Made by a program: the position numbers and the translations under genes. Below are positions 17,324 to 40,618 of a stretch of 64,000 nucleotides of DNA, piece by piece. Each line of letters starts with the position of its first letter. Positions within the stretch are counted from its first letter, which is position 1. The notes under the pieces were generated by a model, which made no database searches, was not told where the DNA came from, and worked only from the letters and a program-made list of their open reading frames with translations. The DNA comes from Herbidospora daliensis (GTDB lineage Bacteria; Actinomycetota; Actinomycetes; Streptosporangiales; Streptosporangiaceae), in the NCBI RefSeq assembly GCF_001570585.1, contig NZ_BBXF01000005.1, positions 372,001-436,000 of the forward strand, written 5' to 3'.

Positions 17324-17348
17324 GCGCGCCGTCCTGGTAGGACACACA

Positions 17349-17379: not shown

Positions 17380-17427
17380 TCGTGGGCGGTCATCAGCCGT
17401 GCTGGTGGACCCCCGTTCGAGAGCGGG

Positions 17428-17946: not shown

Positions 17947-17969
17947 GGCGCCTCCTTCGACACCTACTC

Positions 17970-17994
17970 TAACCGTCAATTGAGTTGACGGTTA
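17970..17994. promoter_or_regulatory. MarR operator (inverted repeat)
   Basis: Perfect 10-bp arms TAACCGTCAA and TTGACGGTTA separated by five bases, in the 67-base gap between the divergent MarR and monooxygenase starts. Size and symmetry fit a MarR dimer site controlling both genes. Confidence 0.7.
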
Positions 17995-18013
17995 CCGCTG
18001 GAGGGGGCAACGG

Positions 18014-19615: not shown

Positions 19616-19660
19616 CACGGCACATCCCCGTCGGCCAGGGCGTCTCTACGGCCGCAAGTT

Positions 19661-23021: not shown

Positions 23022-23234
23022 GCGCCGAGATTTCGGACAATGATCGGAGCAATCATCCTTTTCGGCCATGCATTCAGGTAGTTGCAGAAACAATTACACG
23101 CCGCCTTTTATCCCCTTAATTTTACATATGTGGCTCTCGAAAACGTTCCAAACGACTCTAGGCGAATCTTGATATCCCGATATAACCTCCCTACGAATGA
23201 CTCGATGATCACGACATGATGGGATCTCTCCCGC
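23022..23234 (+). promoter_or_regulatory. AT-rich leader with candidate promoter of the six-gene cluster
   Basis: This 213-base stretch is much richer in A and T than its surroundings. A possible promoter is TTGATA (23169-23174), 17 bases, TACGAA (23192-23197), about 38 bases before the ATG at 23235. No clear operator or terminator after the response regulator was found. Confidence 0.4.
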
Positions 23235-26200
23235 ATGGCAATCGCTCTCGTGGTGCCCATCCACCTGGACGCCATCTGCCTGCCCACCGACCAGGACGCC
23301 GTCGGCCCGGAAGCCGACTTCACGCTTCTTCCCTACGTCGGGCCCGACGGCCGTGACCACCACGGCGACCGCCCCTACCTCGGCGGCGCGATCCTGTCGT
23401 CGCCCTTCGACGACCGGCACTTCCGCCTGAAGGCCGGCCTCCACCTCCACTGGGCGCTGCCCGACGCGCTGACCCGGCTGACCCAGGACGACGACGGCGA
23501 GACCCAGGTCCCGGTGGTCCCCAACCGCTGGCTGGTGACCCGGGCGACCAACGGGACCGTCGACGGCCAGTGGGTGGTCGAGAGCGACCACCTCTCCGAC
23601 GAGGACGGCGGCGGCACCGTCTATCCGGACGCCGGAGGCGACCGGCCCTACCGCCGCCTCGGCCGCCAGGTGAGGTTCGACCAGTGGCCCGTGACCGGCG
23701 GCGAACACCTTCCGGAGCTGACCGCGGTCGGCCACGGCGACCCGGTCTTCGCCGCGTTCTACCCGAACTGCCACAGCGTCTTCGGCTTCTACGACCCCGA
23801 CCACACCGAACCGCCGAACGGCGTGAGTTACGACGTCATCGGCTGGTACGCGAACACGGCCCAGGACCCGGTGGCCCTCCGCAGGACGCCCACCGATTGG
23901 AGCGTTCCATCGGGCACACCGACCCGCCTGTTCTGCTACGCCAAACTGACCTTCGACCCCGGCGACGACACCGCGAACCCCCTGCTGGCGAACGCGGACA
24001 CCGGCGTCTACATCGGCAACAGCCCCACCGAGGCGCTGGCCGCCTCGCTCGGCCCGATCATCGGCGGCGACGACCCCGACGGGATCGAGAACCTCCTGGA
24101 GGCCATCGCCTTCGCGAGCGACCTGGAGTCGCGGAGCACCGACCTGGAGACCCGGCTCGCCGAAGTCCGGCACACCGCCGGTTTCGATCCGGCCCCCGCC
24201 GGGCTGCGCTGGACGGTCCGCCGCCAGGACGACAACGACGGCGCCACCCCCGCCCAGAAGCAGGCCCGCGAGGCCCTCTCGCTCACCGGTCAGGTCGCCG
24301 ACCTGCTCGACGCGCTGAACCAGGCGCAGCAGGACTACGACGAGGCGTGCGACACCCTGGCCAGCCTCCGCGACCGCCTGTTCGCCGACTGGCACAAGTA
24401 CCTGATCTGCGCCTATCCCGACGACGCCACCCGCGACGACTACCCCGACCCGGACGAGGCGGCGTTCTACCTCCAGCGCCAGATCACCGCGATCACGATC
24501 CAGTCCGACCGGACCGGCGTCTTCCCGCCCACCGGGACCGGCGCCACCCGGGCCCACGTGCTGGCCGCCGCGATCAAGAACCTGACCTCCGCGCTCATCC
24601 CGCTCAACACCCAGGCCGCGACGGCGAAGACCGCGTTCGTGGTCGACCGGGCCCCGGCCCCCGTCTGGTGGCGGCCCCGCGAGCCGGTCGTGCTGTTCAC
24701 CGGCCCGGCCGCGACCCCGACCGACCGCCACGGCGCCGACGGCACGCTGGAGTGCGCCGTCGTGGACGTGCCCGATCCGGCGACGCCCGCCGCGCTGACG
24801 ACCGTGCGGACCGGACTGGACGACACGTTTCCCGCGCAGCGGTGGACGACCGACCCGTGGCATCCGGTGCTCCTCCAGTGGGAGGCCGAGTTCTTCCCGA
24901 TCGCCGCCGGCGACAACCTGGCCGCCGACCAGCGCGACTACGACGTGTCCTTCATCCTCAACGGCTACGACCTGCCGCCGGGCGAGGCCGACCTGGTGTC
25001 GAGGAACGGGCTGCTCGACAAGGGCGCCAACGTCTACGCCGGCACGACGGTCCTGTCGTCGGGAGCGCGGCCGGTGTTGTCGGAGCGGGTGCTCGGATAT
25101 CTGGCGGGGGCGGTGCTGACGTCGTACAACGACGGTCACCCGCCGCTCGGCCCCGACGCGTTCGCCGAGGCGCCGGAACCGGTCCTGTCCTGGTACGCCG
25201 GTCTCGACGACGCCGAACCCCGGCTGCTGACCCTGATCCAGGTCTACCGGCACCTGGCCGCCACCGAGGGCTCCAACCTGGCGCAGTCGCTCGGCGGGTT
25301 CAACGACGCGCTGATCATGCGGCGGCTGGTACGCCAGCTCCCGATCGCCGACCCGCTCGGCTACCCCGCCTACCAGCGGTTCGCCGCGCAGGTCGCCGCG
25401 GCGGTGGGCGAGGAGACCCGGTCGTCGCCACGGCCGCTGACCGACTTCAACCCGATCAGGGCCGGCGCGTTGCGGCTGCTCCGGCTGCGGCTGGTCGACA
25501 ACTTCGGGCTGACCCACGAGGTCGCGACCGACCCGACGGGCACGACCGAGCGGCTCCGGGTGCCGGACCACCCGGCGTGGGTGGCCATGGCGCCCCGGCT
25601 GGCGCAGGCCGCCCGGCTGCGGTTCCACCTGCTCAACGCCACACGTGACGACGAGGCGGGCGACCTGCCCGGCATGTCGCCGGTCTGCGGCTGGATCGTC
25701 CCGGCCGACCTCGACGACGCGCTGGCGATCCACGCCGCCGACGGCGCCGGGCTCGGCGAGCTGAGCGCGGTCGGCGGCGGCTGGACCCCCCTTCCCGGCA
25801 GCCCGGCCGACGACCCGGCCGACATCGCCGATCCGACGCTGCGGGCGATCGTGCTGAAGCTGCGGGCGGGCGGACCGGCCGCGATCGCGGCCGCCCTGAC
25901 CGGGCTGACCGCGTCGCTGGCCTCGATCGACCCCGAGAACGACACCCCGGCGGGCGCCCTGCTGACCGTGCGGCCGCTGGCTCTCGTACGGGCGGAACTC
26001 GACCTCCAGATCCGGGGGCTGCCGGCCGTCCACCAGGACTGGAACGTCTTCCGCGAGGACATGCGGCGGTTCGGCCGGGAGACCAACGCGGTCACCGACG
26101 TGCTCTTCCCGGTGCGGCTCGGCCATCCCGGCCGATGGGGCGACGGCCTGGCCGGGCTCTGGTTCCTCGACGAGGAGGGGCAGCCCACCGGCGACTTCCA

Positions 26201-26570
26201 GGCGACTGCGACCATCCCGCAGTCGATCGACATGCCGGCCACCCGGATGGCGTTGCTGGTCGACCCGCGCGGCGGCGTGCACGCGGTCAGTGGGGTGCTG
26301 CCGGTGGCGGCGGCCACGCTGACCCCGGCGCAGTATTCGGCGGCGCTCGACGCGATGGAGCTCGACGTCTTCACCGCGCCCGTGCTGAGCGACGCCGACC
26401 GCATCGGGCTGCCGGTGCCGGACGTGCCCGGCCGCCTCTGGTCGTGGCGGGAGAAGGACCTCACCCTCCCGCTGGACGCCTCGGCGATCGACGCCCACTT
26501 CCCGGCCGCCCTGACCGCGCGCGAGGGCTGGCTGACGCTGCGCCCCGACCCCAGGAACGAGGCCCTGTGA
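23235..26570 (+). CDS. Large protein of unknown function, first gene of the six-gene cluster
   Basis: 1111 aa; ATG at 23235 with only a weak ribosome binding site. I do not recognise a named domain. The N-terminal region (~1-270) contains LHLHWALPDALTRL, VPVVPNRWLVTR and FAAFYPNCHSVFGFYDP, motifs I believe recur in uncharacterised proteins of other phyla. Residues ~285-400 are predicted helical, coiled-coil-like (LESRSTDLETRLAEV, VADLLDALNQAQQDYDEACDTL). A mixed region (~450-560) follows, then a long alpha/beta C-terminal part. There is no signal peptide or membrane helix, so it is probably made in the cytoplasm. Its stop overlaps the next gene (GTGA). Confidence 0.8.
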   Translation: MAIALVVPIHLDAICLPTDQDAVGPEADFTLLPYVGPDGRDHHGDRPYLGGAILSSPFDDRHFRLKAGLHLHWALPDALTRLTQDDDGETQVPVVPNRWLVTRATNGTVDGQWVVESDHLSDEDGGGTVYPDAGGDRPYRRLGRQVRFDQWPVTGGEHLPELTAVGHGDPVFAAFYPNCHSVFGFYDPDHTEPPNGVSYDVIGWYANTAQDPVALRRTPTDWSVPSGTPTRLFCYAKLTFDPGDDTANPLLANADTGVYIGNSPTEALAASLGPIIGGDDPDGIENLLEAIAFASDLESRSTDLETRLAEVRHTAGFDPAPAGLRWTVRRQDDNDGATPAQKQAREALSLTGQVADLLDALNQAQQDYDEACDTLASLRDRLFADWHKYLICAYPDDATRDDYPDPDEAAFYLQRQITAITIQSDRTGVFPPTGTGATRAHVLAAAIKNLTSALIPLNTQAATAKTAFVVDRAPAPVWWRPREPVVLFTGPAATPTDRHGADGTLECAVVDVPDPATPAALTTVRTGLDDTFPAQRWTTDPWHPVLLQWEAEFFPIAAGDNLAADQRDYDVSFILNGYDLPPGEADLVSRNGLLDKGANVYAGTTVLSSGARPVLSERVLGYLAGAVLTSYNDGHPPLGPDAFAEAPEPVLSWYAGLDDAEPRLLTLIQVYRHLAATEGSNLAQSLGGFNDALIMRRLVRQLPIADPLGYPAYQRFAAQVAAAVGEETRSSPRPLTDFNPIRAGALRLLRLRLVDNFGLTHEVATDPTGTTERLRVPDHPAWVAMAPRLAQAARLRFHLLNATRDDEAGDLPGMSPVCGWIVPADLDDALAIHAADGAGLGELSAVGGGWTPLPGSPADDPADIADPTLRAIVLKLRAGGPAAIAAALTGLTASLASIDPENDTPAGALLTVRPLALVRAELDLQIRGLPAVHQDWNVFREDMRRFGRETNAVTDVLFPVRLGHPGRWGDGLAGLWFLDEEGQPTGDFQATATIPQSIDMPATRMALLVDPRGGVHAVSGVLPVAAATLTPAQYSAALDAMELDVFTAPVLSDADRIGLPVPDVPGRLWSWREKDLTLPLDASAIDAHFPAALTAREGWLTLRPDPRNEAL

Positions 26571-26752
26571 ACCCGCCTGTGAACCCGCTGGTGAAGCACG
26601 AGGAGAAGGAGATCCCGCTGAGCCTGACGCTCGGGGAGCTCAACGTCGTCCTCGAAGCTCTCGGCAACCTCCCCTACGTCCGCGTCTACGAACTGATCGG
26701 CAAGCTGCACGAGCAGGCCAGCAGCGTGTTGTCCCCCAAGGAGCCGGAGTGA
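26567..26752 (+). CDS. Small conserved-looking helical protein in the six-gene cluster
   Basis: 61 aa. The GTG at 26567 overlaps the stop of the 1111-aa gene; two further in-frame GTG codons follow at once, so the start may be up to 8 codons later (GAGGAGAAGG lies inside). The body IPLSLTLGELNVVLEALGN, then LPYVRVYELIGKLHEQAS, is two amphipathic helices. Its stop overlaps the LamG gene start (GTGA), so it is translationally coupled on both sides. It could be an adaptor or assembly chaperone for a large neighbour; the size and helix pattern recall small phage structural accessory proteins, but this is only a resemblance. Confidence 0.7.
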   Translation: MNPPVNPLVKHEEKEIPLSLTLGELNVVLEALGNLPYVRVYELIGKLHEQASSVLSPKEPE

Positions 26753-29103
26753 CCGCCAATCCGCTGATGCACTGGCCGATGGACGAGGTGGTCGGCCAGT
26801 CGCTCTACGACGCCTCGGGCAACGGCAGAACCGGCACGGCTTCCGGGACGGCCAAGGCCGTCCCCGACGAGCAGTTCGGCAGCGCCCTGAATTTCACCAC
26901 GGCCAACCAGTACGTGGTCGGCCCCGGCATGAACGTCAGGACGTACACCTTCGAGGTGTGGGTCAGGACGGCCAAGCCCGCGGGCGCGAGCACGCCGCTC
27001 CTCAACCGGCGCAACAGCGTGGACGTCGTCGTCAACCTCAACGCCGACGGTTCGGTCGAGCACCGGTTCGTCACCCAGCAGAGCGCCGGCAACGCCCACA
27101 CCACCCCGGCCGGGCTGGTCCAGTGGGACACCTGGCAGCACATCGCCGTCACCAACGACGGCGGCACGGCCCAGATCTACGTCGACGGCGAACTGGCCGA
27201 CGAGTGGGACTACCCGGGGACCCGCGACGCGAACGACCCCAACCCGCTCGTGCTCGGCGGCGACATCGACACCCGCGTCTACACCGCCGGCCGCTATGCC
27301 CACCTGCGTGGTTACGACGGCGCGCTGACGCCCGCCGAGATCGCCCGCGACCTGGCCGAGGACTCCTCGACGCTGGCCGCGTTCGTCCGGGCCCACCCGA
27401 TGGACCTGGAGCTGCTCAACCTCGACGAGCAGCCGGTGCTGTTCATCGACAACGACCCGTCGGGCCAGCCGATGACGCTCCGGCTGACCAACAGCTCCCG
27501 GCAGAACATCGAGTTCCAGAACGTCGGCGGCGTGCCGAGCTCGGGCAACAACCACGTGGCCATCCGGTTCCGGCCCGACGTGCTCAGCACGCCGCCGAAG
27601 GTCGGGTCGGGCTCGCCCAACTGGGCGGCGACGGCCGCCGCCGACGGCACGGCCGTCTACGTCGTGGCCAAGACCGCCGTCGCGCCGCTCGCGCCGGGCA
27701 ACTGGATCGACATCCCGCTGACCGGCCTGAGCGCCGACCCGGCCGGGGGCAGCCGGGGCACCCGCATCGAGTTCGACTACCAGCGGATGCGCTATGCGAA
27801 CCAGACCGACGGCCTGGTGGGCAGCCGCCTGCAGTTCCTCGACGTCGTCAACCACCGAGGCCGCCCCGACATCCCGCTCGCCGCCGGCTTCGCCAACGGC
27901 AACACGGTCCTGAACGACGGCGCGACCCCGAGCACTCTGATCCTGTACGTCGCCAACACCTCCACCACCAACACGATCACCCTGCCCGGCGGCGGCCCCG
28001 ACAAGGCCGGCGCCCTGTTCACCGTGACCTTCGACATCGGCGCGAACGGCAACGACTGGGCCCTGGCCGGCAGCGCCGACGGCGTCGCGGTCGCCGTGGC
28101 CACCCCCGGCGCCTCCTCGTCGTGGGGCCAGGAGAGCCACGACCTCGACACCCGCGCGTCGTGGACGCTCTATCCGGCCGCCGACCTGAACCTGGCGCCG
28201 GGCAAGGCCATCACCTTCACCGTGTCGGGCATCGTCGGCCTGGGCGACCCGGGCCGGGCCGGGATCGTGGTCGGCTGGGAGAACATCCCCGGCTACCGCG
28301 ACGGCTCGCGGACCCTGGAGGCCGAGCGCCGGCCGCTCGCCTTCAGCGGGTCCAACGCGGGCGTCGGCACCCTGGCCCCGGCCGCCCGCCTGCACGTCGT
28401 CGACCAGACCCGCCTCCCCACCACGAACGGCTCGCTGGTCATCGGCCCGCCGGCGGCCGGATCCCTGAAGATCGGCTACGGCGCCGACCACGGGTGGCTC
28501 CAGTCGGGCGGCACCTCGGTGCTGGCCCTGAACCCCTCGGGCAATCGGGTGATCGTCGGCGCGACGGGCACGAACGACGTGTCCCCGACCGCCAAGCTGG
28601 TCTCGGTCGCCGACGAACTCCAGGTCCAGCTCCGGCGCACGGCGGCCAGTGGAGGCAGCGGCCGGAAGATCTTCCTGGAGCTGCTCCAGGAGGACATGGA
28701 CGCCGAGATCTACCCGACGATCCGGTTCCACCAGTCGAGGAAGTTCTGGCAGCAGCTCCAGGGCCGCGCCGACGGTTTCCACTTCGTCTCGGGCAACGAC
28801 TCGACCACCCCGGTCGACGTCTACGCCGCGACGTTCAACGGCACCGCGCTGAAGCTGGGCGACGCCTCGCTCACCGCCGACCAGCTCCGGCTGCTGTCGC
28901 AGGTGACCGCCGCGCAGCTCCAGGTGCTGGCGCGACTGGCCGCCGGGCAGCTCAAGGTCGGCCTCTACAACGACACGACCAGGCTGACGGCCGCACCGTC
29001 CAGCATCCCGACCGTGGGCAACTCCTACACCGTGATCGGCTTGGAGCTGCCCAACGTGAACCAGACGAGACAGCAGTTCCGGCTCACGCCGGTGACGAGC
29101 TGA
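26749..29103 (+). CDS. LamG-domain protein with tail-fibre-like C-terminus
   Basis: 784 aa from a GTG overlapping the small gene. Residues ~5-205 form a LamG/concanavalin-like jellyroll (MHWPMDEVVGQSLYDASGNG, YTFEVWVRT, WQHIAVTNDGGTAQIYVDGEL). The middle (~220-530) is beta-rich with Asn- and Thr-rich strands. The C-terminal part (~540-784) reads like phage tail fibres upstream of their tips: VGTLAPAARLHV, LKIGYG, VIVGATGTNDVSPTAKL, DVYAATFNGTALKLGDASLTADQL. No signal peptide or membrane helix. It may be the sugar-binding or fibre component of an assembly encoded by the cluster; this is inference. Confidence 0.75.
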   Translation: MTANPLMHWPMDEVVGQSLYDASGNGRTGTASGTAKAVPDEQFGSALNFTTANQYVVGPGMNVRTYTFEVWVRTAKPAGASTPLLNRRNSVDVVVNLNADGSVEHRFVTQQSAGNAHTTPAGLVQWDTWQHIAVTNDGGTAQIYVDGELADEWDYPGTRDANDPNPLVLGGDIDTRVYTAGRYAHLRGYDGALTPAEIARDLAEDSSTLAAFVRAHPMDLELLNLDEQPVLFIDNDPSGQPMTLRLTNSSRQNIEFQNVGGVPSSGNNHVAIRFRPDVLSTPPKVGSGSPNWAATAAADGTAVYVVAKTAVAPLAPGNWIDIPLTGLSADPAGGSRGTRIEFDYQRMRYANQTDGLVGSRLQFLDVVNHRGRPDIPLAAGFANGNTVLNDGATPSTLILYVANTSTTNTITLPGGGPDKAGALFTVTFDIGANGNDWALAGSADGVAVAVATPGASSSWGQESHDLDTRASWTLYPAADLNLAPGKAITFTVSGIVGLGDPGRAGIVVGWENIPGYRDGSRTLEAERRPLAFSGSNAGVGTLAPAARLHVVDQTRLPTTNGSLVIGPPAAGSLKIGYGADHGWLQSGGTSVLALNPSGNRVIVGATGTNDVSPTAKLVSVADELQVQLRRTAASGGSGRKIFLELLQEDMDAEIYPTIRFHQSRKFWQQLQGRADGFHFVSGNDSTTPVDVYAATFNGTALKLGDASLTADQLRLLSQVTAAQLQVLARLAAGQLKVGLYNDTTRLTAAPSSIPTVGNSYTVIGLELPNVNQTRQQFRLTPVTS

Positions 29104-29117
29104 CGGGGGGAGCCGCG

Positions 29118-30614
29118 ATGCCAGACCCGAACAGGAAACGCAAGTCCGAAGGCGACCGGCTGAGGGAGGAGACCGAGGCCAGGGCCTCTCACGAAGCCGC
29201 GGTGAAGAAGGCCAAGACGAAGCGCGCAGCCGACGACGCCGAGGAGGAGACGAAGCGGCTGGCGCGGATGATGGAGGGCCGCAGCCTCTCGGTCCCGGGC
29301 GAGTGCGGAGACGGCAACTTCTACATCTCCTTCATCCAGATGGGCCAGGGCGACTGCGCGATCGTCAGCACCCCCGGAGGGGCCACCCTCATGATCGACT
29401 GTGGCTCCGACGCCACCGAGTCGAGCCGGGAGCCCTACGACCCCGACAAGGATCCGGACAAGAACAAGGACAAGGCCCAGACCAAGTCGTATCTGGATCG
29501 CATCAGAGGCGTGATCCACCACCCGCGCCACCTGGCCAAGGCCAAGCAGCTCGACTACCTCGTCTTCACGCACCCCAACACCGACCACTACAACCAGATC
29601 GACCAGGGCCTCCTCACGGGCACGCTCGTCGACCCCGAGACCCGTGTGAAGACCAACACCTACCTCGACATCGGCGTCCTGTACCACAGCGACGATTCCA
29701 CGGCCTACAACCTCCAGATCGACAAGAACAACCTGTCGGCCTGGCTGCTGGCGCGCATGGGGCACAACCCGTCGCTGACCCGCCGGGTCCGGCTCCTGCA
29801 CGTCGTGACCCGGCCCGCCCCGGGCAAGGGCGAGGCGGTCAAGAAATCGACGGCGGGCGCGACGGCCAAGGGCGACATCGACACGGACAACTTCGAGATC
29901 GACACGGTCGAGAGCCCCACCGAGGAGGCCAATCTGAAGGGCATCACCGAGACGATCATGTCCAAGGTGAACGACACCGACGTGACGAGCACGCTGACGC
30001 CCACCGTCAACAAGCTCGACGCGGAGGGCGGATACGTCATCCACACGGAGCCGAACTGCACCATCACGCTCCTGGCGGCCGGGGTCCTCTACAACTACCG
30101 GAACGACCCCAGCGACTACACCAACCGCGGCAGCGTGGTCACCCTCATCGAGGTCTTCGACAAGAGGATCCTGGTCTGCGGCGACGCCACGACCAGCACC
30201 GAGCAGTACATCCGCTTCAAGCGCACCAACCGGACGGTGGAAAGCGAGCGCATCAAGAACCTGGCGATCCTCCAGGTGGGCCACCACGGCAGCGTCACCT
30301 CCTCCCACCACAAGTTCGTCACGGCGACGAACGCCCAGTACGTGGTCGTCAGCACGGGCTACAAGGTCGAGAAGGACTCGCTGCCCAAGGCGAAGATCAT
30401 CTCCCGGTACCGGAACGCGCAGAAGACGGCCGGGCGCACGGCCACGGCCCACGACGTCGCCATGTGGTACACCGGCGCGGGCAACTTCTACTTCCGCACC
30501 CCCCTGGCCTCGGCCGCGGTCCCGATCTACACCACGGGCACGAACCTGACCCAGTGTTTCAAGATCGACAAAGACACCAAGCAGGTCGTGTATCTCAACG
30601 AGGCGGGCAGATAG
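29118..30614 (+). CDS. ComEC/Rec2-type metallo-beta-lactamase-fold protein
   Basis: 498 aa, ATG after GGGGGGAG. A lysine/glutamate-rich N-terminus (~1-55) precedes the MBL fold. YISFIQMGQGDCAIVSTPGG and LMIDCGSD are the usual ComEC-type entry strands. The metal motif is HPNTDH (His152 to His157), with Asn where the second metal-ligand His often stands, as in ComEC proteins. ILVCGDAT is the Asp-bearing motif, and VGHHGS (His389-His390) is the ComEC signature. A long insert (~230-330) is rich in Thr and Asp. There is no membrane part, unlike true ComEC. Possible roles are nuclease, phosphodiesterase or esterase. It is the only obvious enzyme of the cluster. Confidence 0.82.
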   Translation: MPDPNRKRKSEGDRLREETEARASHEAAVKKAKTKRAADDAEEETKRLARMMEGRSLSVPGECGDGNFYISFIQMGQGDCAIVSTPGGATLMIDCGSDATESSREPYDPDKDPDKNKDKAQTKSYLDRIRGVIHHPRHLAKAKQLDYLVFTHPNTDHYNQIDQGLLTGTLVDPETRVKTNTYLDIGVLYHSDDSTAYNLQIDKNNLSAWLLARMGHNPSLTRRVRLLHVVTRPAPGKGEAVKKSTAGATAKGDIDTDNFEIDTVESPTEEANLKGITETIMSKVNDTDVTSTLTPTVNKLDAEGGYVIHTEPNCTITLLAAGVLYNYRNDPSDYTNRGSVVTLIEVFDKRILVCGDATTSTEQYIRFKRTNRTVESERIKNLAILQVGHHGSVTSSHHKFVTATNAQYVVVSTGYKVEKDSLPKAKIISRYRNAQKTAGRTATAHDVAMWYTGAGNFYFRTPLASAAVPIYTTGTNLTQCFKIDKDTKQVVYLNEAGR

Positions 30615-30616
30615 CC

Positions 30617-33600
30617 ATGACTCCCGAGGAACTCGACTCGCTGATCCCCTACGGCGGGCGCCTGGACCTGGCGGTGTCGGCGCTCGGCTCCCCCGACCTG
30701 ACGGCTCTGTTCGGCCGGTTCCTGCCCGACGGCCGCCTCGTCGTCGACATCGACCGCAGACGCGGCGACGGCGACGGCGTGACGGTGACGGGCACCGGCG
30801 TCACCGGCCCGTTCACCGGAATGGAGGTCACCGCGGAGTTCGGCGTCTCCGGCCAGGTCGCGACCCTGCGGCTGGAGGGCGTCGGTGACCGGTCCTGGCG
30901 GTTCGGCACCGCCTTCCCCTCTTTGGCCCGCACCTACTTCGACGACCTGGTGATCGACCGGCCCGCCTTCGTGCTCGACTGGGGCCCCGACGTCGTCGCG
31001 TCGGCCCCCGACCCCGGCGACGTGCTGATGTCGTTCACCGGCACGCTGGAGACCGGCACCGCGACGGCGCTGCTCGACCTGCTGATGCCCAACGTCGGCG
31101 CGCACACGCTGGAGGGCTCGATCGACACGACGTCGCTGCCCGCCCTGCGGAGCTCACCCGCCCAGACCGTCCCCATCATCGTGATCTCCGGCCCCGACGA
31201 CGGGGAGATCCAGCTCGGCTCCATGTTCTCGGTGTCGTCGCTGCGCTACCAGCTCACGGCGATGCCGACGTTCAACTACGAGATGGCCGCCCTGGTCGTC
31301 ATCTGCGAGATCGTCTTCGAGGGCCTGGTCAGCCCGGCGAACGGCGACGCGTTCGGAGACGTGCTCATCACCGCGCGCACCCGCGACCTCGGCTCCGGCC
31401 TGACCCTGAGCGCGCAGTTCAAGGGCCCCGACGACGACGACCGGCCGCCCGGCGACGGAGACCGGGGCCTGCCGCTGTCCCTGAACACCATCAGGTCCAT
31501 CATGCAGCGGCCGTCGCTGACGGTGCCCGTCGACCTCGGCAAGGATCTGACGGTCCGGCTGACCGGCCTCACCACCCGGGTGACGACCAGCCCGTCGCTG
31601 GGGCTCGACTTCGTCTCCTTCGCCCTCCAGTCGGACGTCGACTGGCCCATCGTGCCCGACCTGCTCACGCTCCAGGCGATCGACCTGAACGTCGGGCTCG
31701 CCGGCATCATGACCGGGCCCACGGTCTCGGGCGCGGTGTCGGGGCTGCTCGGCATCGGTGACTCCGGCACCCTGGAGCTCACCGCCGACCTGTCCGGTGC
31801 GCTTCTGTCCGGCGGCCTGCGCGACGGCGACCCGCCACTGAAGATCGCCGAAGTCTACGAGCACTTCACCGGCGACTCCGGCGACCTGCCCGACCTGACG
31901 GTGCCGAAGTTCAACCTCCAGGTGGTCACGCCGGGCAGCGGGCGCGCCCTCGCCTACCACGGCGTGGTCGAGTTACGGGACCTCTGGCAGATCGGGCCGG
32001 TGGCGCTCACCGACGTCTGGTTCACCATCGACCGCGACGCCTCCGGCACCGCGTTCGTCGCCAAGGCCACGTTCGTGGTCCACACCATCGCGATCCTGGT
32101 CTCGGCCTCCTACGACTCCGCCACCGGCTGGGTGTTCAGCGGCGAGTCCGGCTACGGTCAGCGGGTCGCCGTCGGCGAGCTCGTCGAGAGCGTCGCCCGC
32201 GATCTCGGCGGGCCGCCGACCCTGCCGAAACCCGTCGAGGACCTCGTCGTCCAGAACCTCGCGGCCTCCTTCTCCACCGGGTCCGACCAGCTGATCGTCA
32301 CCGCGGAGGCCAGCTTCCCCGTCGACACGATCGAGGTCGACATCGCGGTCGCGATCGACACCGGCGCGCACAGCTACGGCGGCAGCCTGACCGCCATCGC
32401 CGGTGACGACGCCTACGAGTTCGACGTGCACTTCCTGGAGGACCACGGCGTCGACCTGCTGACCGCCAGCTACGTCCACACCTCCGGCCCGCTGCCCGAC
32501 CTGCGCACCCTGATCTCCGGCCTGTCGCCCTCGGCGGCGCGGTTCATCCCCGCCGGGATCTCGGTCGACGTCGCGGACGTCGTGTTCGCCATGGGGAGCG
32601 CGTACGTCTTCAGCGTCGATCTGAAGGCCACGATCGACCTGTCGGGCCTGCCCCTGGTCGGCCCCCACCTGACCGGCGACCGCAAGATGGGGTTCGACCC
32701 GCTGCGGATCGTCGCCGCCACCGGCGCGATGCCCTCCGCCGACATCGCGAGTCTCAACGGCATCCTGCCGCAGGGCGTCCACCCCTTCCCGCCTCGCGAC
32801 ATGGCCGCCGGCTTCGCGCTCGACGGCACCCTCCTGCTGGGCCCGCTGGAGAACCCCGTCGCCCTGCCGGTCAGCGACGGCGAACCCGCCCCCGTCCTGC
32901 CGAACCCGCCGCCGGCCCAGAGCCCGGGAGGCCAGAACGCCGTCTGGTACGCCGTCCAGCGCGGCCTGGGCCCCGTCCACGTCGAGCGGGTCGGCCTCGC
33001 CTACGCCCACGACGCCGGCAAGCCGCCGGTCGTGGGCGTGCTGGTGGACGGGTCGATCAGCGTCGGCGGGCTGTCGCTGTCGCTCGACGGGCTCCAAGCC
33101 TCGGTGCCGCTGACCCTGCCGGTCCAGGCGCCGTCGTTCGACCTGAAGGGCCTCGGGGTCGCGTACACGGAAGGGCCGGTCAGCGTCAGCGGGGCGTTCC
33201 TGAAGGGGACCCTTGTCTACGACGACGTCACCTATCCGGCCTACAGCGGCCGGGCCGTCATCGCCACCGAGGACCTGACGCTCGGCGCGATCGGCTCCTA
33301 CGCCCAGCTGCCGTCAGGCCCTTCTCTGTTCGTGTACGCCGTGCTCGACCACGCGTTCGGCGGGCCGCCCTTCTTCTTCGTCACCGGGCTGGCCGCCGGG
33401 TTCGGCTACAACCGGCGGCTGACCCTGCCCGACGTGACCGGGATCGCGACCTTCCCGCTGGTGCAGGAGGCGCTGGGCACCCGGCCGCCGGGCACGCTGG
33501 CGGCGGAGATGAAGGCGCTGGAGCCCTACATCACCCCGTCGGAAGGCGACGGGTTCGTGGTGGCCGGGATCCGGTTCTCCACGTTCAAGATGATCGACTC

Positions 33601-35002
33601 GTTCCTGCTGGCCGCTGTCTCGTTCGGCGGGAGGTTCGAGGTCGACGTGCTCGGGCTGTCGACGCTGGTGCTGCCCGTGGCCGACACGACGCGGGCGGAC
33701 ACCACGCCGATCGCGGAGCTGCAACTGGCGTTGAAGGCCACCTTCGCGCCCAGCGACGGCTACTTCTCCCTGATCGCGCAGCTCACACCGAACTCGTTCC
33801 TGCTGTCACGGGCCTGCCATCTGACCGGTGGGCTGGCCTTCACCAGCTGGTTCGGCGGGCCGCACGACGGCGACTTCGTACTGACCGTGGGCGGCTATCA
33901 CCCGGCGTACGGCAGACCCGCGCACTATCCGCTGGTGCCCAGGGTCGGGTTCACCTGGCAGGTCGACGACCATCTGTCGATCCGCGGCGGCGCCTACTAC
34001 GCGCTGACGCCGTCGGCGCTGATGGCGGGCGGGGCCATCTCGATCGACTACCACGACGGGAACCTGCGGGCCTGGTTCGACGCCTCGATGGACTTCCTGA
34101 TCGCCTGGCAGCCCTACCACTACGACGCCCGGTTCCGGATCAACGTCGGCGCGAGCTACACCTACAAGTTCTTCGGCACCCACACCGTCAACGCCCACGT
34201 GGACGCCGACGTGCACCTGTGGGGGCCGGAGTTCGCCGGCACCGCCAAGGTCGACATCAAGGTCATCTCGTTCACGATCCCCTTCGGCGCTAGCAACCCG
34301 AAGACCGACACCACGATCCCGTGGGCCCAGTTCAAGACGACGCTGCTCCCGGCCGACAAGTTGTCGATCGCGGTCAGGGCCGGCGCCACCGGCCCGGGCA
34401 GCGGCGCCGACCTGGGCGTCGTCGACCCGGCGACGCTCGAACTCACCACCGACTGCGTGGTCCCCTCGACCGTCGCGAAAGCCAACGCGACCGTGGTGCC
34501 GACCACGGGCGGCGCGTTCGGCGTGGCGCCCTCGGGCATCAGAACGGGCATCACGTCGACGCACCGCGTCCGCATCTCGCGCGACGGGTTCAGCGCGGAG
34601 AGCGACTTCGTCTTCACGCCGATCACCAAGGCGCTGCCGTCGGCCTTGTGGGGCACCGACCCGGCGGTCTCGGTGCACCGCCCCGAACTGACGGCCCCGC
34701 TGGTGACGGGGTTCCACATCGCCCCCAAGCCCCACCAGAACGGGGCGTCGGTCACGCTGGCGGGCTCCGTTCTGGCGGCCGGCGAGGCGACGTACACGGA
34801 AAGCACCCTGACCTGGCAGGACGCCGACACCGCCCTCGTCATGAGCCGAGCCGGCAAGCTCGGCCAGGCCATCGTCGACCCGGCCGTCGCGGCCACCCGG
34901 CGGTCCGTCGCCGCCGCCGTGCTCACCGACCCCGAAATCGACTTCACCGGCTTCGACTTCGCCTCATACGCCGAGATCCCCTTCCTGGACTACCATGAGT
35001 GA
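30617..35002 (+). CDS. Giant beta-rich protein resembling DUF6603 family
   Basis: 1461 aa; ATG two bases after the previous stop. I recognise DUF6603-like landmarks: FFFVTGLAAGFGYNRRL, HLTGGLAFTSWFGGPHDG, DFVLTVGGYHPAYG, VGFTWQVDDHLSIRGGAYYALTPSALMAGG (about residues 910-1150). The first ~900 residues consist of repeated beta-sheet units with alternating hydrophobic strands (for example VDVADVVFAMGSAYVFSVDLKATIDL). There is no signal peptide and no membrane helix. The length and alternating beta pattern suggest a large beta structure such as a lipid- or ligand-holding groove or a fibre, but the family has no known function that I am aware of. The last bases overlap the next gene. Confidence 0.78.
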   Translation: MTPEELDSLIPYGGRLDLAVSALGSPDLTALFGRFLPDGRLVVDIDRRRGDGDGVTVTGTGVTGPFTGMEVTAEFGVSGQVATLRLEGVGDRSWRFGTAFPSLARTYFDDLVIDRPAFVLDWGPDVVASAPDPGDVLMSFTGTLETGTATALLDLLMPNVGAHTLEGSIDTTSLPALRSSPAQTVPIIVISGPDDGEIQLGSMFSVSSLRYQLTAMPTFNYEMAALVVICEIVFEGLVSPANGDAFGDVLITARTRDLGSGLTLSAQFKGPDDDDRPPGDGDRGLPLSLNTIRSIMQRPSLTVPVDLGKDLTVRLTGLTTRVTTSPSLGLDFVSFALQSDVDWPIVPDLLTLQAIDLNVGLAGIMTGPTVSGAVSGLLGIGDSGTLELTADLSGALLSGGLRDGDPPLKIAEVYEHFTGDSGDLPDLTVPKFNLQVVTPGSGRALAYHGVVELRDLWQIGPVALTDVWFTIDRDASGTAFVAKATFVVHTIAILVSASYDSATGWVFSGESGYGQRVAVGELVESVARDLGGPPTLPKPVEDLVVQNLAASFSTGSDQLIVTAEASFPVDTIEVDIAVAIDTGAHSYGGSLTAIAGDDAYEFDVHFLEDHGVDLLTASYVHTSGPLPDLRTLISGLSPSAARFIPAGISVDVADVVFAMGSAYVFSVDLKATIDLSGLPLVGPHLTGDRKMGFDPLRIVAATGAMPSADIASLNGILPQGVHPFPPRDMAAGFALDGTLLLGPLENPVALPVSDGEPAPVLPNPPPAQSPGGQNAVWYAVQRGLGPVHVERVGLAYAHDAGKPPVVGVLVDGSISVGGLSLSLDGLQASVPLTLPVQAPSFDLKGLGVAYTEGPVSVSGAFLKGTLVYDDVTYPAYSGRAVIATEDLTLGAIGSYAQLPSGPSLFVYAVLDHAFGGPPFFFVTGLAAGFGYNRRLTLPDVTGIATFPLVQEALGTRPPGTLAAEMKALEPYITPSEGDGFVVAGIRFSTFKMIDSFLLAAVSFGGRFEVDVLGLSTLVLPVADTTRADTTPIAELQLALKATFAPSDGYFSLIAQLTPNSFLLSRACHLTGGLAFTSWFGGPHDGDFVLTVGGYHPAYGRPAHYPLVPRVGFTWQVDDHLSIRGGAYYALTPSALMAGGAISIDYHDGNLRAWFDASMDFLIAWQPYHYDARFRINVGASYTYKFFGTHTVNAHVDADVHLWGPEFAGTAKVDIKVISFTIPFGASNPKTDTTIPWAQFKTTLLPADKLSIAVRAGATGPGSGADLGVVDPATLELTTDCVVPSTVAKANATVVPTTGGAFGVAPSGIRTGITSTHRVRISRDGFSAESDFVFTPITKALPSALWGTDPAVSVHRPELTAPLVTGFHIAPKPHQNGASVTLAGSVLAAGEATYTESTLTWQDADTALVMSRAGKLGQAIVDPAVAATRRSVAAAVLTDPEIDFTGFDFASYAEIPFLDYHE

Positions 35003-36728
35003 CGACATCGTCCTGTACGACAACCAGACCCCCGCCCTGGAGTCAGGCGACTACAGCATCACCGTCGACCAGAGCCTCTCCCTCGACACCAACCTCGCCC
35101 CCGCTCTCGTCCGCAGCTTCAGCGTGGCCGGAGAACGGCTCGCCTTCCCGCCCTCGGCGGTCCGGGCGGTCTACCCGCCCGACGGCGCGACCGGCGACTA
35201 TTCGCAGACCCTCCCCCATGTCGTGCTCGACGGCGCGACCGTGCCCTGGCAGCGCACCCTCGGCCCGGGCACCCCCGGCCCCTGGCTGATGGTGCTGCTG
35301 TTCGCCGGGTCCGACCGCCCGACCCCCCAGGTCGTGGCGGCGAGCACGCTCGGCGTCACCCTGGAGGGCGCCGAGAAGCCGGCCGACCAGGTGACCGTGA
35401 TCGACGTGCCGCGCACGCTGCTGACCTCGATCCTCCCGGCCGCCGCCGACCTGCCGTTCACCGCCCACGTGCGGTCGGGCGACGGCCCCGACGCGGCCGT
35501 GGTGATCGGCAGCCGGCTGCCGCCGGCCGGGGAGCCCTGCGTGGCCCACCTGGTCTCGATGGAGAACAGGTTCTCCTACGGCACCCTGGCCTCGACCTCG
35601 GGCGCAAAGCCGGTCCGGCTGGTGTCGCTGGCGAGCTGGAAGTTCACCGTCCTCGACACCGACCACTCGTTCGCGGCCCGCGTCCACGACCTGGCCGGGA
35701 ACAGCGGCGGGTTCCGGCTGCCGCCGACGGGCGGCACCGCCGCCGACGCCTTTCTGTCCCGGGGGCTCGTTCCGGTACGGCATCGCCTGCGCGGCGGCGG
35801 GAAGACGGTCTCCTGGTATCGCGGCCCCTTCGCCGACGGCCCGGTGGTCGGCGGCCCGATGGCGTCGAGCCCGCCGGTCCGCTCGGCCGACGGCCTGCTG
35901 CGCTACGCCAAGGCTGAGGGCATGTTCGACCTGACCTACGCGGCGGCCTGGCAGCTCGGCCGCCTGCTGGCGCTGCGCGACGACGGCCTGGCGACCACGC
36001 TGCTGACCTGGAAACGCCGCCGCGACCGTCCGGTGGGGGCCGGCGCCGGCTATCCGCTGAAGGTTCCGTCCGTCGACGACGCCCCGCCGCAGGAAATCGC
36101 CGAATGGATGGCCGATCTGACGACCCTGGCGACGGTGCCGTTCACCTATCTGATCCCCGACGAACGGCTGCTGCCGCTGGAGTCGCTGCGCTTCGTCGAC
36201 GTGGACCAGGAGTGGGTGCGGTGCCTGGTCGACGGGGCGTACAGCATCGGCCGGGTCACCGCCGCCGACGCCGAACGCGACGCCGCGACGGGGCCGCCGG
36301 TGACGCCCGCGCGGCTGACCGGGGCGCTGATCCGGTCGTCGATCGTCAGCGGCTATCCGGGCCTGCTGATCGACGGCTACGACGCCGGCGGGAAACGGCT
36401 GGAGCCGGTCCGCCGTGACACGCTGTCGCCGAACGTGCTGCTGGTGCTGTTCGACGGCGTGCTGACCCGGCTCGACCTGCACCAGAAACCCGAACAGCAG
36501 CACTTCGCCGTCGAGTCGGGCGGGACCGGCAAGGTCGTCCGGGCCCTGCGTGGCGCCGCGGGCTCCACCGACCCGGTGCCTCTCGGCACGACCGGAACCG
36601 TGCCGCTGGCCGCGCTGGCCGCCAAGATGGCCGCGAAACTCAACGTGAAAAGCGGATTCGGACCGGCGGCGTTCGCCCGCCAGATGCTGGAGACAGCCGA
36701 ACGGGTGACCTTCACGACCCCTGCCTGA
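34995..36728 (+). CDS. Protein of unknown function, last gene of the six-gene cluster
   Basis: 577 aa; the ATG overlaps the end of the giant gene by eight bases. No named domain recognised. The N-terminus (VLYDNQTPALESGDYSI, FSVAGERLAFPPSAVRAVYPP, TLPHVVLDGATVPWQRTL, GPWLMVLLFAG) has a pattern that I believe recurs in uncharacterised proteins near DUF6603 genes, and is mostly beta. The C-terminal half is helical (LTYAAAWQLGRLLALRDDGLATTLLTWKRRRDR). No signal peptide or membrane helix. It ends 15 bases before a converging histidine kinase gene. Strong coupling to the giant protein suggests a shared complex. Confidence 0.78.
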   Translation: MSDDIVLYDNQTPALESGDYSITVDQSLSLDTNLAPALVRSFSVAGERLAFPPSAVRAVYPPDGATGDYSQTLPHVVLDGATVPWQRTLGPGTPGPWLMVLLFAGSDRPTPQVVAASTLGVTLEGAEKPADQVTVIDVPRTLLTSILPAAADLPFTAHVRSGDGPDAAVVIGSRLPPAGEPCVAHLVSMENRFSYGTLASTSGAKPVRLVSLASWKFTVLDTDHSFAARVHDLAGNSGGFRLPPTGGTAADAFLSRGLVPVRHRLRGGGKTVSWYRGPFADGPVVGGPMASSPPVRSADGLLRYAKAEGMFDLTYAAAWQLGRLLALRDDGLATTLLTWKRRRDRPVGAGAGYPLKVPSVDDAPPQEIAEWMADLTTLATVPFTYLIPDERLLPLESLRFVDVDQEWVRCLVDGAYSIGRVTAADAERDAATGPPVTPARLTGALIRSSIVSGYPGLLIDGYDAGGKRLEPVRRDTLSPNVLLVLFDGVLTRLDLHQKPEQQHFAVESGGTGKVVRALRGAAGSTDPVPLGTTGTVPLAALAAKMAAKLNVKSGFGPAAFARQMLETAERVTFTTPA

Positions 36729-36743
36729 GAGTGACGCGGTCCG

Positions 36744-38135
36744 TCAGGACTCCCGCGTGCAGAGGGCGGGGAGACGGAGGACGAGGCGAGCGCCCGTGCC
36801 GGCGTCCTCGACGTGCAGGGTGCCGCCGTGGACGGCGGCGATCTGCCGGGCGATCGCCAGGCCGAGCCCGGTGCCGCCGGCGCCCCGGTCGCGTGCGGTG
36901 TCCAGCCGGGCGAACCGCTGGAAGACCAGTTCCCGTTTCTCCACCGCGATGCCCGGCCCGTCGTCGAGCACCTCCAGCATCGCGACACCCTGCGGGAACC
37001 GGTGGAGGTCATGCCTGCCGACGGGCAGGCGCCGAACTTGGAGGGCCACGGTGGTGGCGGCGTACCGCTCGGCGTTGTCGACCAGATTGGCCAGCAGACG
37101 CGAGAGCGCGGCACGGTCGCCCATCACCATCACGCCGGGTTCGAGCCGGGACTCGACGGTCTTGGCGCTGGTGCGATCCCGCCGTTCACGCTCGGCGGCC
37201 ACCAGACAGGAAAGGTCCGTCGGTTCGCGCGCGACGGCGTGTTCGGACTCCAGCCGCGCGATGATCAGCAGGTCGTCGATGATCACCCGCAGCCGGCAGA
37301 GACTGCGCAGGATCGTGGCGCCCAGGGTCGGGACGTCGGTCTCCCCCGGCGCGTAGAGGGCGTCCTCGACCTCCGCCTGGATCGCGGCGATGGGCGTGCG
37401 CAGCTCGTGGGAGGCGTCGCAGGTGAAGTGGCGCTGCTGCGCCATGGCGGCCTGCAGGCGGGCGAGCGTGCGGTTGACGGTCTCCGCCAAGTCGTGGATC
37501 TCGTCCCTGCTCTGGGGTACGGGGACCCTGCGGTCGAGGGTGAGGTCGCTCATCCGGTCGAGCTCACCCTGGATGCGGCTGACGGGACGCAGGGAGTTGG
37601 CGACGACCCGGTAGGCCAGGAACGTGACGGCCGCGGCCAGCACCGCCGCGGCGCCCACCACGGTGGCCGCCAGCGATGGGACCACATACAGCGGGATCGC
37701 CGGGGACGCGACGTAGACGATCCAGTCCCGGCTTCCCTGCTGCACCTTTTGGGCGACCACCAGATTGCACTCTCCCGGCTTGAAGGCTCCGCCGCAGACG
37801 ACGGAGGAGAACATCGTCCTGCCGTCCATCGGGAAGGAGGTGATGACCGGCCGGCCGCTCAGTTGCGGGGTCGACGCCACCACCGCGCCTCCGGAGTCGA
37901 CGATCTGCACCTCGCGGTCCGAGCTGGCGACGACCGACGTGACCGCCTCCCCGCGCTCGACCAGCGTGATCAGGTGCCCGCCGGCGGCGGAGAGCTCGTT
38001 CTTCAGCGAGTCGGTGGCGTACCGGTGGAACGCGGCCATGACCGTCACGACCAGCAGCGTCGAGAGCAGCACTGCGAGCACGCCGGCGAGCAGCGTGATC
38101 CGCTTCGTGATCGAAAGATGCCGCCACGTGTCCAT
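36744..38135 (-). CDS. Orphan membrane sensor histidine kinase (HisKA/HATPase)
   Basis: 463 aa from the ATG at 38135; an upstream extension to 38228 looks non-coding. An N-terminal helix (~13-35), an extracytoplasmic sensor of ~110 residues containing a Cys pair (VVCGGAFKPGECNL), and a second helix (~155-180) lead to a HAMP domain (SLRPVSRIQGELDRM). The phosphorylated His243 is in CDASHELRTP. The ATPase domain has LANLVDNAERYA, LEVLDDGPGIA and GGTGLGLAIARQI. No response regulator gene adjoins it, unusual for this class. It converges on the six-gene cluster with only 15 bases between stops. Confidence 0.88.
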   Translation of the reverse strand: MDTWRHLSITKRITLLAGVLAVLLSTLLVVTVMAAFHRYATDSLKNELSAAGGHLITLVERGEAVTSVVASSDREVQIVDSGGAVVASTPQLSGRPVITSFPMDGRTMFSSVVCGGAFKPGECNLVVAQKVQQGSRDWIVYVASPAIPLYVVPSLAATVVGAAAVLAAAVTFLAYRVVANSLRPVSRIQGELDRMSDLTLDRRVPVPQSRDEIHDLAETVNRTLARLQAAMAQQRHFTCDASHELRTPIAAIQAEVEDALYAPGETDVPTLGATILRSLCRLRVIIDDLLIIARLESEHAVAREPTDLSCLVAAERERRDRTSAKTVESRLEPGVMVMGDRAALSRLLANLVDNAERYAATTVALQVRRLPVGRHDLHRFPQGVAMLEVLDDGPGIAVEKRELVFQRFARLDTARDRGAGGTGLGLAIARQIAAVHGGTLHVEDAGTGARLVLRLPALCTRES

Positions 38136-38258
38136 ATACCAGCCCCCTGGCCAGTCGACCACACGGCACGCAGCCGGGTGTTCACGCACCGGCGGGGCCC
38201 TGGCATAGGCGGGGGAAAATCGCGTCAAAACTGACAGGGCAACCTCTTGGACACCCGG

Positions 38259-38981
38259 CTAATCGCCTTTCATGAGGTCGGCCAGCCGGTTCCAGGCGGG
38301 AGAGGTGGCTCCCGGCTGAGATCGTGCGGCCAGTCGTGCGATGGCCGGGTTGTGGACGGGCCGCGTCTCGGATCGGCCGTGGTGCCCGGTGAACCACTTC
38401 CGGGTGCGGTCGGCGAGGGCGGGCAGGCGGGGATCGTCCGGTGACCAGTCGTAGGCGAGGTCGTGTTCGAGGTAGAGGGCGCGGAACTCGGGATCGGTCA
38501 GGAGCTCGCGTCTTTCGGTGATCCACACGAAGGCGTCCTCGGGCGAAGCGGTCCGCATGATGATCCAGCCGTCCCGCTCCAGGCGCAGCTGGCGTTCGCT
38601 GACACCGAGTTCGCGCAGGTGGTCGAGGTGGTCGGCGACCTCCGGCGAAACGAAGAGCCGGTCGCCGCCGCGCAACTGGGCGAGCTGGTCGCAGGTCCGC
38701 CGCAGTCGCGCGATGCGGTCTTGGAGAGTGCGGTCGATCTCGGCGATGGCCGCCGTGAGCGCGTCCGGATCGGCGTCGAGGAGGTCTTTGACGCGGGACA
38801 GCGGCACGCCCGCCGAGGCCAGGGTTCTGATCTTGACGAGGTCGACGGCGTCCTGGGCGCCGTAGCGCCGGTAACCGGAGGTGTCGCGCTCCGGTTCGGC
38901 GAGCAGACCGCGCTCGTGATAGTGGCGAATGGCTTTGACGGTCACTCCGGCGTAGTCCGCGAGCTGGCCAATCGTGAGCAT
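38259..38981 (-). CDS. MerR-family transcriptional regulator
   Basis: 240 aa. I choose the ATG at 38981 (MLTIGQLADY) because GGAAGG lies eight bases upstream; the ATG at 38990 abuts that site. The N-terminal MerR winged helix (~1-70) reads MLTIGQLADYAGVTVKAIRHYHERGLL, then GYRRYGAQDAVDLVKIR. A helical linker and a ~110-residue C-terminal effector domain with WITERRELLTDPEFRALY follow, different from metal-sensing MerR proteins, which have Cys near the end. It is downstream of, and co-directional with, the serine hydrolase gene (24 bases apart), so probably in one autoregulated operon controlled from a perfect operator at 40449-40469. Confidence 0.85.
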   Translation of the reverse strand: MLTIGQLADYAGVTVKAIRHYHERGLLAEPERDTSGYRRYGAQDAVDLVKIRTLASAGVPLSRVKDLLDADPDALTAAIAEIDRTLQDRIARLRRTCDQLAQLRGGDRLFVSPEVADHLDHLRELGVSERQLRLERDGWIIMRTASPEDAFVWITERRELLTDPEFRALYLEHDLAYDWSPDDPRLPALADRTRKWFTGHHGRSETRPVHNPAIARLAARSQPGATSPAWNRLADLMKGD

Positions 38982-39005
38982 GCCGAACATCCTTCCACCT
39001 GGTGG

Positions 39006-40430: not shown

Positions 40431-40448
40431 GCGGAGCATCGTCGGACG

Positions 40449-40469
40449 TTGACCCTGGGGCAGGGTCAA
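40449..40469. promoter_or_regulatory. MerR operator overlapping the serine hydrolase promoter
   Basis: Perfect 9-bp arms TTGACCCTG and CAGGGTCAA with three bases between. On the minus strand the first arm begins with the -35 TTGACC, and a weak -10 (GACGAT) follows 20 bases later. The over-long spacer containing the palindrome is the hallmark of MerR-activated promoters. Transcription would begin at or near the ATG at 40430. Confidence 0.7.
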
Positions 40470-40496
40470 GCCCGCGCACCAGCCGACCACTGAATT

Positions 40497-40548
40497 GCAA
40501 CCGAGGCCCAAGACGCGCGGAACGAGGCGCAACCGAGACCCAAGGCGC
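40497..40548. repeat. Pair of 20-bp direct repeats in the hydrolase/secreted-protein divergent region
   Basis: GCAACCGAGGCCCAAGACGC (40497-40516) and GCAACCGAGACCCAAGGCGC (40529-40548) differ at two positions and are 32 bases apart, about three helical turns. They lie between the divergent serine hydrolase and FN3 protein genes and may bind a regulator. Confidence 0.4.
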
Positions 40549-40618
40549 ATCAGAAACGATCTTCGAGTCAGGGGCGGGGTCCTGCTCCGCCCCGCACCCG
40601 ACCCGAGGAGGAGCTTCT

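Follow-up and report, generated by a model that had tools for sequence, protein, structure and literature searches.

An accessory six-gene DUF6603 operon of Herbidospora daliensis with an apparently exchangeable enzyme gene

What might a set of tightly packed genes do together when several of them match no known family and none of the products carries a recognizable signal for leaving the cell? This question is raised by an operon in a 64,000-nucleotide (nt) stretch of the Herbidospora daliensis genome (contig NZ_BBXF01000005.1, positions 372,001–436,000), hereafter called the window. Its six genes, g1 to g6 (Table 1), had been proposed in a preliminary description to form a joint, mobile, and conserved system, and the coordinates of the open reading frames (ORFs) agree with the close packing described there: g1/g2 and g2/g3 overlap by 4 nt and g5/g6 by 8 nt, and g4 is separated from g3 by 14 nt and from g5 by 2 nt. 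No Pfam or NCBIfam family matched g1, g2, or g6 above its cut-off. A simple in-house scan for hydropathy and signal peptides found neither a signal peptide nor a membrane helix in any of the six proteins, as had been stated earlier. Comparison with related loci shows that the operon combines a conserved chassis (g1, g3, g6, the greater part of the DUF6603 protein g5, and often g2) with an exchangeable enzyme, the payload. We consider this anatomy, taken alone, very probable.

The operon is more than a chance assembly, because its families recur, with their arrangement preserved, across many phyla. Scanning GTDB genomes with the DUF6603 profile yielded 471 relatives, and the following counts were obtained from the best 80 loci of the 471 (numbered with the prefix L); the scan, seeded by DUF6603, covers g1 and g6 only where DUF6603 is present. 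Relatives of g6 (the VLYDN protein) were found in 78 of the 80 loci, some of them as partial matches, those of g1 (the LHWALPDAL protein) in 69 (57 upstream and 12 downstream of g5), those of g3 in 62, and those of g2 in 23, part of the missing genes being accounted for by contig ends. The start of g6 lay within 300 nt of the end of g5 in 73 of the 78 loci. The exceptions were L055, L090, L096, L108, and L116, and in L108 and L116 both genes are located within one open frame. The 80 loci were distributed over 11 named phyla, Actinomycetota (20), Cyanobacteriota (20), Bacteroidota (13), Chloroflexota (6), Pseudomonadota (5), Acidobacteriota (3), Bacillota (2), Myxococcota (2), Balneolota (1), Chlorobiota (1), and Verrucomicrobiota (1), in addition to KSB1 (3), Aminicenantes (1), and two unassigned bins. 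DUF6603 may also occur in fungi. L072 and L084 are both loci of Herpetosiphon aurantiacus.

Other genera of the family carry the six genes in an order identical to that of the window (L038 and L040–L043; L041 and L043 are truncated inside g1). L039 has the same order, but its slot protein, encoded directly upstream of the DUF6603 gene, had no match in the g4 search. A second arrangement, DUF6603-g6-g1, was observed in L030, L032, L037, and L044–L049. In the type C loci (L033–L036), the gene after DUF6603 encodes a protein distantly related to g6 (hhalign E value of 1e-5, probability of 81%), and the next encodes a protein of the 1,500-amino-acid (aa) class, for which no relation to g1 was found. 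The co-occurrence of the LHWALPDAL, VLYDN, and DUF6603 proteins across phyla, stated in the preliminary description, was recovered as synteny in the 80 loci. According to that description, there would be no system if the homologues were not neighbours elsewhere or each belonged to an unrelated known family; neither was found.

The operon is also accessory. DUF6603 was detected in 9 of 296 genomes sampled across the phylum and in 2 of 7 genomes of the genus, the genome of the window being included in both counts. In the sister genome G394, flanks with 96.5% and 92% identity lie about 33 bp apart and replace window positions 23028–40476, and in two more sister genomes the similarity stops at the same left-hand position. 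One sister genome thus lacks the operon at the corresponding site. G394 has a different DUF6603 locus elsewhere (L136, contig C24).

The product of g4 has a metallo-β-lactamase (MBL) fold (PF00753; E value of 7e-6, 26.5 bits against a cut-off of 22.7), and the metal-ligand motifs THxxxDH, GDxT, and HHxS were invariant in 15 of 15 aligned relatives. It is an MBL of the ComEC type and probably acts as a nuclease or phosphodiesterase. Its identification as a ComEC/Rec2 competence protein was rejected, since the score for the equivalog (44.6 bits) was below the cut-off of 190 and the simple scan found no membrane-like segment. The protein matched the LmuA model of PADLOC with an E value of 4.5e-15, and also the RTasMBL, PDC-M48B, and Avs1a models; the NCBIfam Avs1a score was 31.3 bits against a cut-off of 420, and 6A-MBL was likewise below its cut-off.

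Comparison of the loci indicated that the gene directly upstream of the DUF6603 gene is an exchangeable payload gene, an observation that the earlier description did not foresee. The 61 classified slots (60 of the 80 loci and the window) comprised MBL (34, window included), HNH-like (7), EEP phosphodiesterase-like (5), class-3 lipase (3), a family c4 of no known kind (3), DUF4135/LanM-like (2), subtilisin S8 (1), and protein-glutamine deamidase (1) proteins, and five were left without a class. One of these five, in L099, may be GREB1-like. In the other 20 loci, the slot read N (4), ran into a contig end (6), was payload-less (7), or had an unclear upstream gene (3; L105, L118, and L128). The set was built from 62 slot proteins including that of the window, from which five were dropped (three N reads and two fibre-like proteins, L116 and L125) and to which the payloads of L065, L094, L112, and L124 were added manually, so that the final set of 61 includes the window.

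The class assignments have different bases. The MBL class is a single-linkage BLAST cluster, and L107, the one cluster member from these loci that was scanned with Pfam, was below the MBL cut-off. EEP members were assigned by Pfam (L075 and L104), BLAST (L088), or motif (L067 and L109), and the motifs GDxN and SDH were kept in all five; lipases were assigned by Pfam (L071) or BLAST (L098 and L124), and GHSLG was kept in both that were checked of the three. Pfam defined the DUF4135, S8, and deamidase classes. In L064, positions 7746–10001 encode two tandem related slot proteins, the first of which matches Gln_deamidase_2 and is the source of the deamidase label. The family of about 820–1,070 aa in L062, L065, L078, L079, L085, L092, and L112 contains a near-constant stretch, EWCHLxGHGxGGxE...NFxSGSxHCNTEQ, and was named by none of the libraries searched; "HNH-like" is our own reading of the EWCHLxGHGxGG...HCNTEQ part. 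In the type C loci, the gene before DUF6603 encodes an M64 peptidase (L033), a protein weakly similar to PhoD (L034), or a WD40 protein (L035). Payload class changed 23 times on a g6 tree (a quick tree with 57 rows and 54 inner branches, 20 starred and 25 open), against a shuffled mean of 24.3, and a number as low was reached in 39 of 200 shuffles. This closeness to the shuffled mean indicates that the payloads have been reshuffled almost freely against the chassis. The small protein g2 was found beside MBL (12), HNH-like (3), EEP (1), S8 (1), and unclassified payloads, and thus is not tied to one payload.

The first approximately 380 residues of the DUF6603 protein vary with the payload rather than with the chassis. 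The assignment of g5 to DUF6603 is clear (PF20248; 466.7 bits against a cut-off of 27). Two Microcystis loci (L069 and L085) are 82% identical in g6, 76% in g1 (346 aa in view), and 74% in g5 from residue 324, but their payloads and g5 N-termini do not align. Among 1,431 pairs of classified loci, those with a chassis similarity of at least 0.6 had a mean g5 N-terminal similarity of 0.41 when they shared a payload class (7 pairs) and 0.034 when they did not (9 pairs). The observed value of the overall payload-label test was reached in none of 500 label shuffles, which ignore shared descent; the comparison within chassis-similarity bins accounts for descent in part. L062 and L085, both with HNH-like payloads, had an N-terminal similarity of 0.82 at a chassis similarity of 0.48. 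Within the 33 MBL loci, the partial Spearman correlation of payload similarity was 0.76 with the g5 N-terminus and −0.05 with the rest of g5 (0 of 500 permutations). When the closest different-payload pairs were aligned, homology began at window residues 366–387 in five of six pairs and at 327 in the sixth, and it began at 457–516 in five more distant pairs.

Payload-less loci with the upstream core gene in view numbered seven (L082, L103, L110, L111, L116, L120, and L125). In five of them (L082, L110, L111, L120, and L125), 233–334 residues precede an internal anchor of g5, whereas the median for the 60 payload loci is 791, so that g5 is shorter by about 450–550 residues and lacks its N-terminal region. 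As the g5 N-terminus changes with the enzyme, it would most simply be a docking domain for the payload. The joint-system reading of the preliminary description is supported in part: the unit is conserved, accessory, and signal-less. That MBL is only one of several slot enzymes and that the DUF6603 N-terminus changes with it had not been anticipated.

The product of g3 is suggested to be a fibre with changeable binding domains. Among 51 family members scanned, 26 matched LamG, 10 Peptidase_S74, 7 phage Collar, and 3 Gp10_C, and PLAT and B_lectin were each found in one. The family consensus contains VGIGTxxPxxxLxV stretches, which we take to be a feature of tail fibres; that g3 forms trimers is a guess. 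Profiles of g1, g5, and g6 had no significant sequence match in the PDB, the best for g1 having an E value of 0.08. The AlphaFold2 model of g5 residues 262–1461 contained 44 strands of at least 8 residues (mean predicted local distance difference test score [pLDDT] of 78.3, predicted template modelling score of 0.53), and that of g6, with a mean pLDDT of 90.2, had no clear fold match.

Some payloads carry, near one end, basic clusters resembling nuclear localization signals (NLS), such as PPKKKRKK in L053. Of 57 payloads, 13 had a terminal basic cluster (four of five residues basic, at most 60 residues from an end), against 2.96 expected (0 of 500 shuffles), as did 7 of 11 type-A MBLs, the kind found in the window (0.79 expected; 0 of 500 shuffles). 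In chassis proteins, such clusters occurred in 2 of 69 g1 (1.2 expected), 1 of 78 g6 (2.0), 4 of 62 g3 (1.35), and 3 of 80 g5 proteins (0.85). NLS patterns counted over whole proteins showed a modest excess in payloads (19 of 62, against 11.8), and g6 was likewise above expectation for two other patterns. The basic tails hint at nuclear targeting and at a eukaryotic target.

On these grounds, our best reading is a non-contractile protein-delivery particle assembled in the cytoplasm, with delivery and target being what we infer. The six proteins, lacking secretion signals, would assemble inside the cell. The payload would sit on the DUF6603 N-terminus and be held or translocated by the giant beta meander of g5, and the LamG/fibre protein would bind glycans on a target cell. 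The particle would then leave by lysis, and the enzyme would enter the target; the payload in the window would be the ComEC-type MBL, whose basic NLS-like tail hints at a eukaryotic one. Since only 2 nt separate g4 from g5, there is no immunity gene between them, and the fibre, the enzymes, the missing immunity gene, and the missing signals together make delivery to another cell the most economical reading. The whole chain, a modular payload system including delivery into other cells, could in our judgement equally well be right or wrong. More tentative, and on balance rather doubtful, is its fullest form: a non-contractile particle of at least 11 phyla, unrelated to phage tails except for its fibre, that bears one exchangeable enzyme on a swappable DUF6603 dock and brings it into eukaryotic cells, for instance those of grazers, in some cases aided by a tail for nuclear targeting.

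Several observations weigh against this delivery reading. The contractile sheath family PF04984 had no match in the genome of the window, and thus no known injector would help. The g3 protein of the window itself matched LamG only, with no S74 or Collar match. The g5 model is of medium confidence; with regard to a closed outer-membrane-type barrel in the DUF6603 region, its porin matches have a root-mean-square deviation of about 13 Å, and Foldseek gave TM-scores of 0.03–0.29 among the matches listed. As for the dock, L109 (EEP) and L126 (MBL) have unlike payloads, yet their g5 proteins align from residue 47. L103 has a full-length g5 (806 residues before the anchor) with no payload in view, the payload-less L116 is intermediate (586), and fewer than 600 residues precede the anchor in 5 of the 60 payload loci (L070, L091, L106, L112, and L124), the short g5 of L112 and L124 being due to broken frames. 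The terminal basic-cluster test is post hoc because it was made after examples had been seen, the excess was weaker in the other 46 payloads (6 of 46, 2.13 expected; 8 of 500 shuffles), and such a tail may instead serve in DNA binding or packing. The g4 MBL also resembles defence effectors.

This last point bears on the main alternative, an intracellular anti-phage or stress defence in which an invader would be sensed by the large proteins, which would then set free or switch on a swappable effector, as in Lamassu, Avs, and CBASS. The PADLOC matches of g4 described above agree with it, as do the sub-threshold NCBIfam Avs1a and 6A-MBL scores, the range of enzymes, which is like the effector palette of defence systems, the patchy distribution among genomes, and one plasmid locus (L131) near CATRA/CHAT conflict genes. 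ATPase, STAND, SMC, and cyclase families, however, had no match among the six proteins, and the S74, Collar, and varied lectin domains of the g3 relatives fit cell-surface binding better. The neighbourhood does not favour it either: 38 ORFs flanking other loci looked ordinary, and no PADLOC model fitted more than one member among the best 25 of 35, a comparison made without a control set. We regard this explanation as unlikely. An exported or surface complex that degrades environmental polymers, with LamG binding the substrate and the slot enzyme cutting it, would account for LamG and the other carbohydrate-binding domains in g3 relatives and for the several hydrolases in the slot. It is hard to reconcile with the lack of signal peptides and membrane segments in the simple scan and with a slot that also holds protein deamidase, LanM-like, and HNH-like proteins; moreover, the scanned slot proteins matched no carbohydrate-active catalytic family at or above the cut-off, the one weak row being Glyco_hydro_48 with an E value of 0.044. 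We judge this explanation quite improbable. A domesticated phage tail, reduced to a tailocin or other non-contractile form with DUF6603, g6, and g1 in the place of tail components, is very improbable despite the tail-fibre domains in some g3 relatives, as g6, g1, and a 528-aa part of DUF6603 had no match in 50,697 phage records, DUF6603 had none in a pattern scan of IMG/VR, the PHROGs rows were one for g1 (E value of 0.31) and none for g6, and the genome lacks a sheath match; with no match in phage records or the viral contigs of IMG/VR, phage origin was rejected.

Dependence on a contractile system was likewise rejected. Of 19 genomes that have a g6 relative, 2 contained a sheath, and so did 2 of the 20 genomes in which g6 had no match (G394, which belongs to these 20, has a DUF6603 locus); thus no link to a contractile system was seen.

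The delivery reading shares features with several known systems. Like Tc toxins and Rhs beta-cocoon toxins, it would involve a big carrier rich in beta structure whose enzyme payload varies. The Tse15 beta-cocoon is the subject of PMC11461821. Receptor-binding parts are a further likeness to Tc toxins. In contrast to these, the six window proteins gave no TcA, TcB, TcC, or Rhs Pfam row at E values up to 1, and the payload is a separate upstream gene rather than a C-terminal domain, with the proposed dock exchanged together with it. Extracellular contractile injection systems (eCIS) similarly combine a target-binding fibre with diverse payloads (see also PMC11297309 and PMC12923769). They differ by their contractile sheath, for which the genome of the window had no PF04984 match. 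The proteins g1, g5, and g6 are not known to be eCIS parts. As in polymorphic toxins, where toxin modules recombine on a constant carrier (PMC3482391), exchange is seen here, but the toxin is an unfused, separate gene, and no immunity gene stands between payload and DUF6603 in the window. The need of a payload for a specific carrier is also seen with VgrG and effectors of the type VI secretion system (PMC4067218); the operon has no type VI family match, and the proposed dock is the DUF6603 N-terminus. Lamassu and Avs systems share an MBL enzyme of the same broad kind. The operon was not assigned to Lamassu, for which the LmuA model matched but no SMC/ATPase family (the LmuB partner) did among the six proteins, nor to AVAST type 1, Avs1a being below its cut-off and STAND NTPases having no match among the six.

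The literature search found no paper naming DUF6603 or PF20248, and among the entries listed on toxin delivery, judged from the listings, we recognized no description of this operon. These searches yielded no described system that includes the core families, and the operon is apparently undescribed; the principle of exchanging toxins on a constant carrier is already known. A coherent role would be the first for three large families that have no significant PDB sequence match and that are spread from actinobacteria and cyanobacteria to Bacteroidota. Because payload and DUF6603 N-terminus change together, a clear and testable prediction on cargo loading follows, for which the loci offer a natural series of matched enzyme–dock pairs. 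Delivery, if confirmed, would be a novel route of protein transfer from bacteria into other cells.

Table 1. Features of the operon and its surrounding segment in the window
Feature	Position	Strand	Basis
g1, 1111-aa LHWALPDAL protein, chassis	23235..26570	+	ORF
g2, 61-aa protein, chassis accessory	26567..26752	+	ORF
g3, 784-aa fibre-like protein, N-terminal LamG lectin	26749..29103	+	LamG, E 5e-20
LamG/ConA-like lectin domain of g3, residues 61–199	26929..27345	+	PF13385
g4, 498-aa MBL-fold putative payload enzyme (slot gene)	29118..30614	+	PF00753 above cut-off
Basic NLS-like N-terminal tail of g4, residues 1–45	29118..29252	+	MPDPNRKRKSEG...KKAKTKRAADD
g5, 1461-aa DUF6603 protein	30617..35002	+	PF20248, E 1e-139
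Payload-specific N-terminal region of g5, residues ~1–380, proposed docking domain	30617..31756	+	Co-variation with payload
DUF6603 domain of g5, residues 780–1253	32954..34375	+	PF20248 match
g6, 577-aa VLYDN protein, chassis	34995..36728	+	Match in 78/80 loci
Accessory segment of ~17.4 kb, operon and three minus-strand ORFs	23028..40476	.	~33 bp instead in sister genome G394

Downstream of the operon, positions 36744–40550 of the window contain three ORFs on the minus strand, which by eye encode a histidine kinase, a MerR-like regulator, and a serine hydrolase; the histidine-kinase region has a 90% relative in the sister genome G324. The 38 ORFs flanking other loci belonged to mixed ordinary families among 25 of 67 Pfam rows. 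They matched 35 PADLOC models, of which the best 25 each fitted a single member, mostly the kinase-like PD-T4-6, with no control set for comparison.

Relatives of g6 were present in 8 of 72,556 plasmid records. In a Paenibacillus polymyxa plasmid (L130, positions 1–3334 and 11257–19376), a protein annotated as phage baseplate V and a GH-E nuclease are encoded about 8 kb upstream of a group formed by a DUF6603 gene, a relative of g6, and a large gene annotated as hypothetical. In a Streptomyces plasmid (L131, positions 933–19690), genes annotated as the conflict proteins CATRA and CHAT lie about 5 kb upstream of a comparable group of a DUF6603 gene, a g6 relative, and a large gene of hypothetical product.

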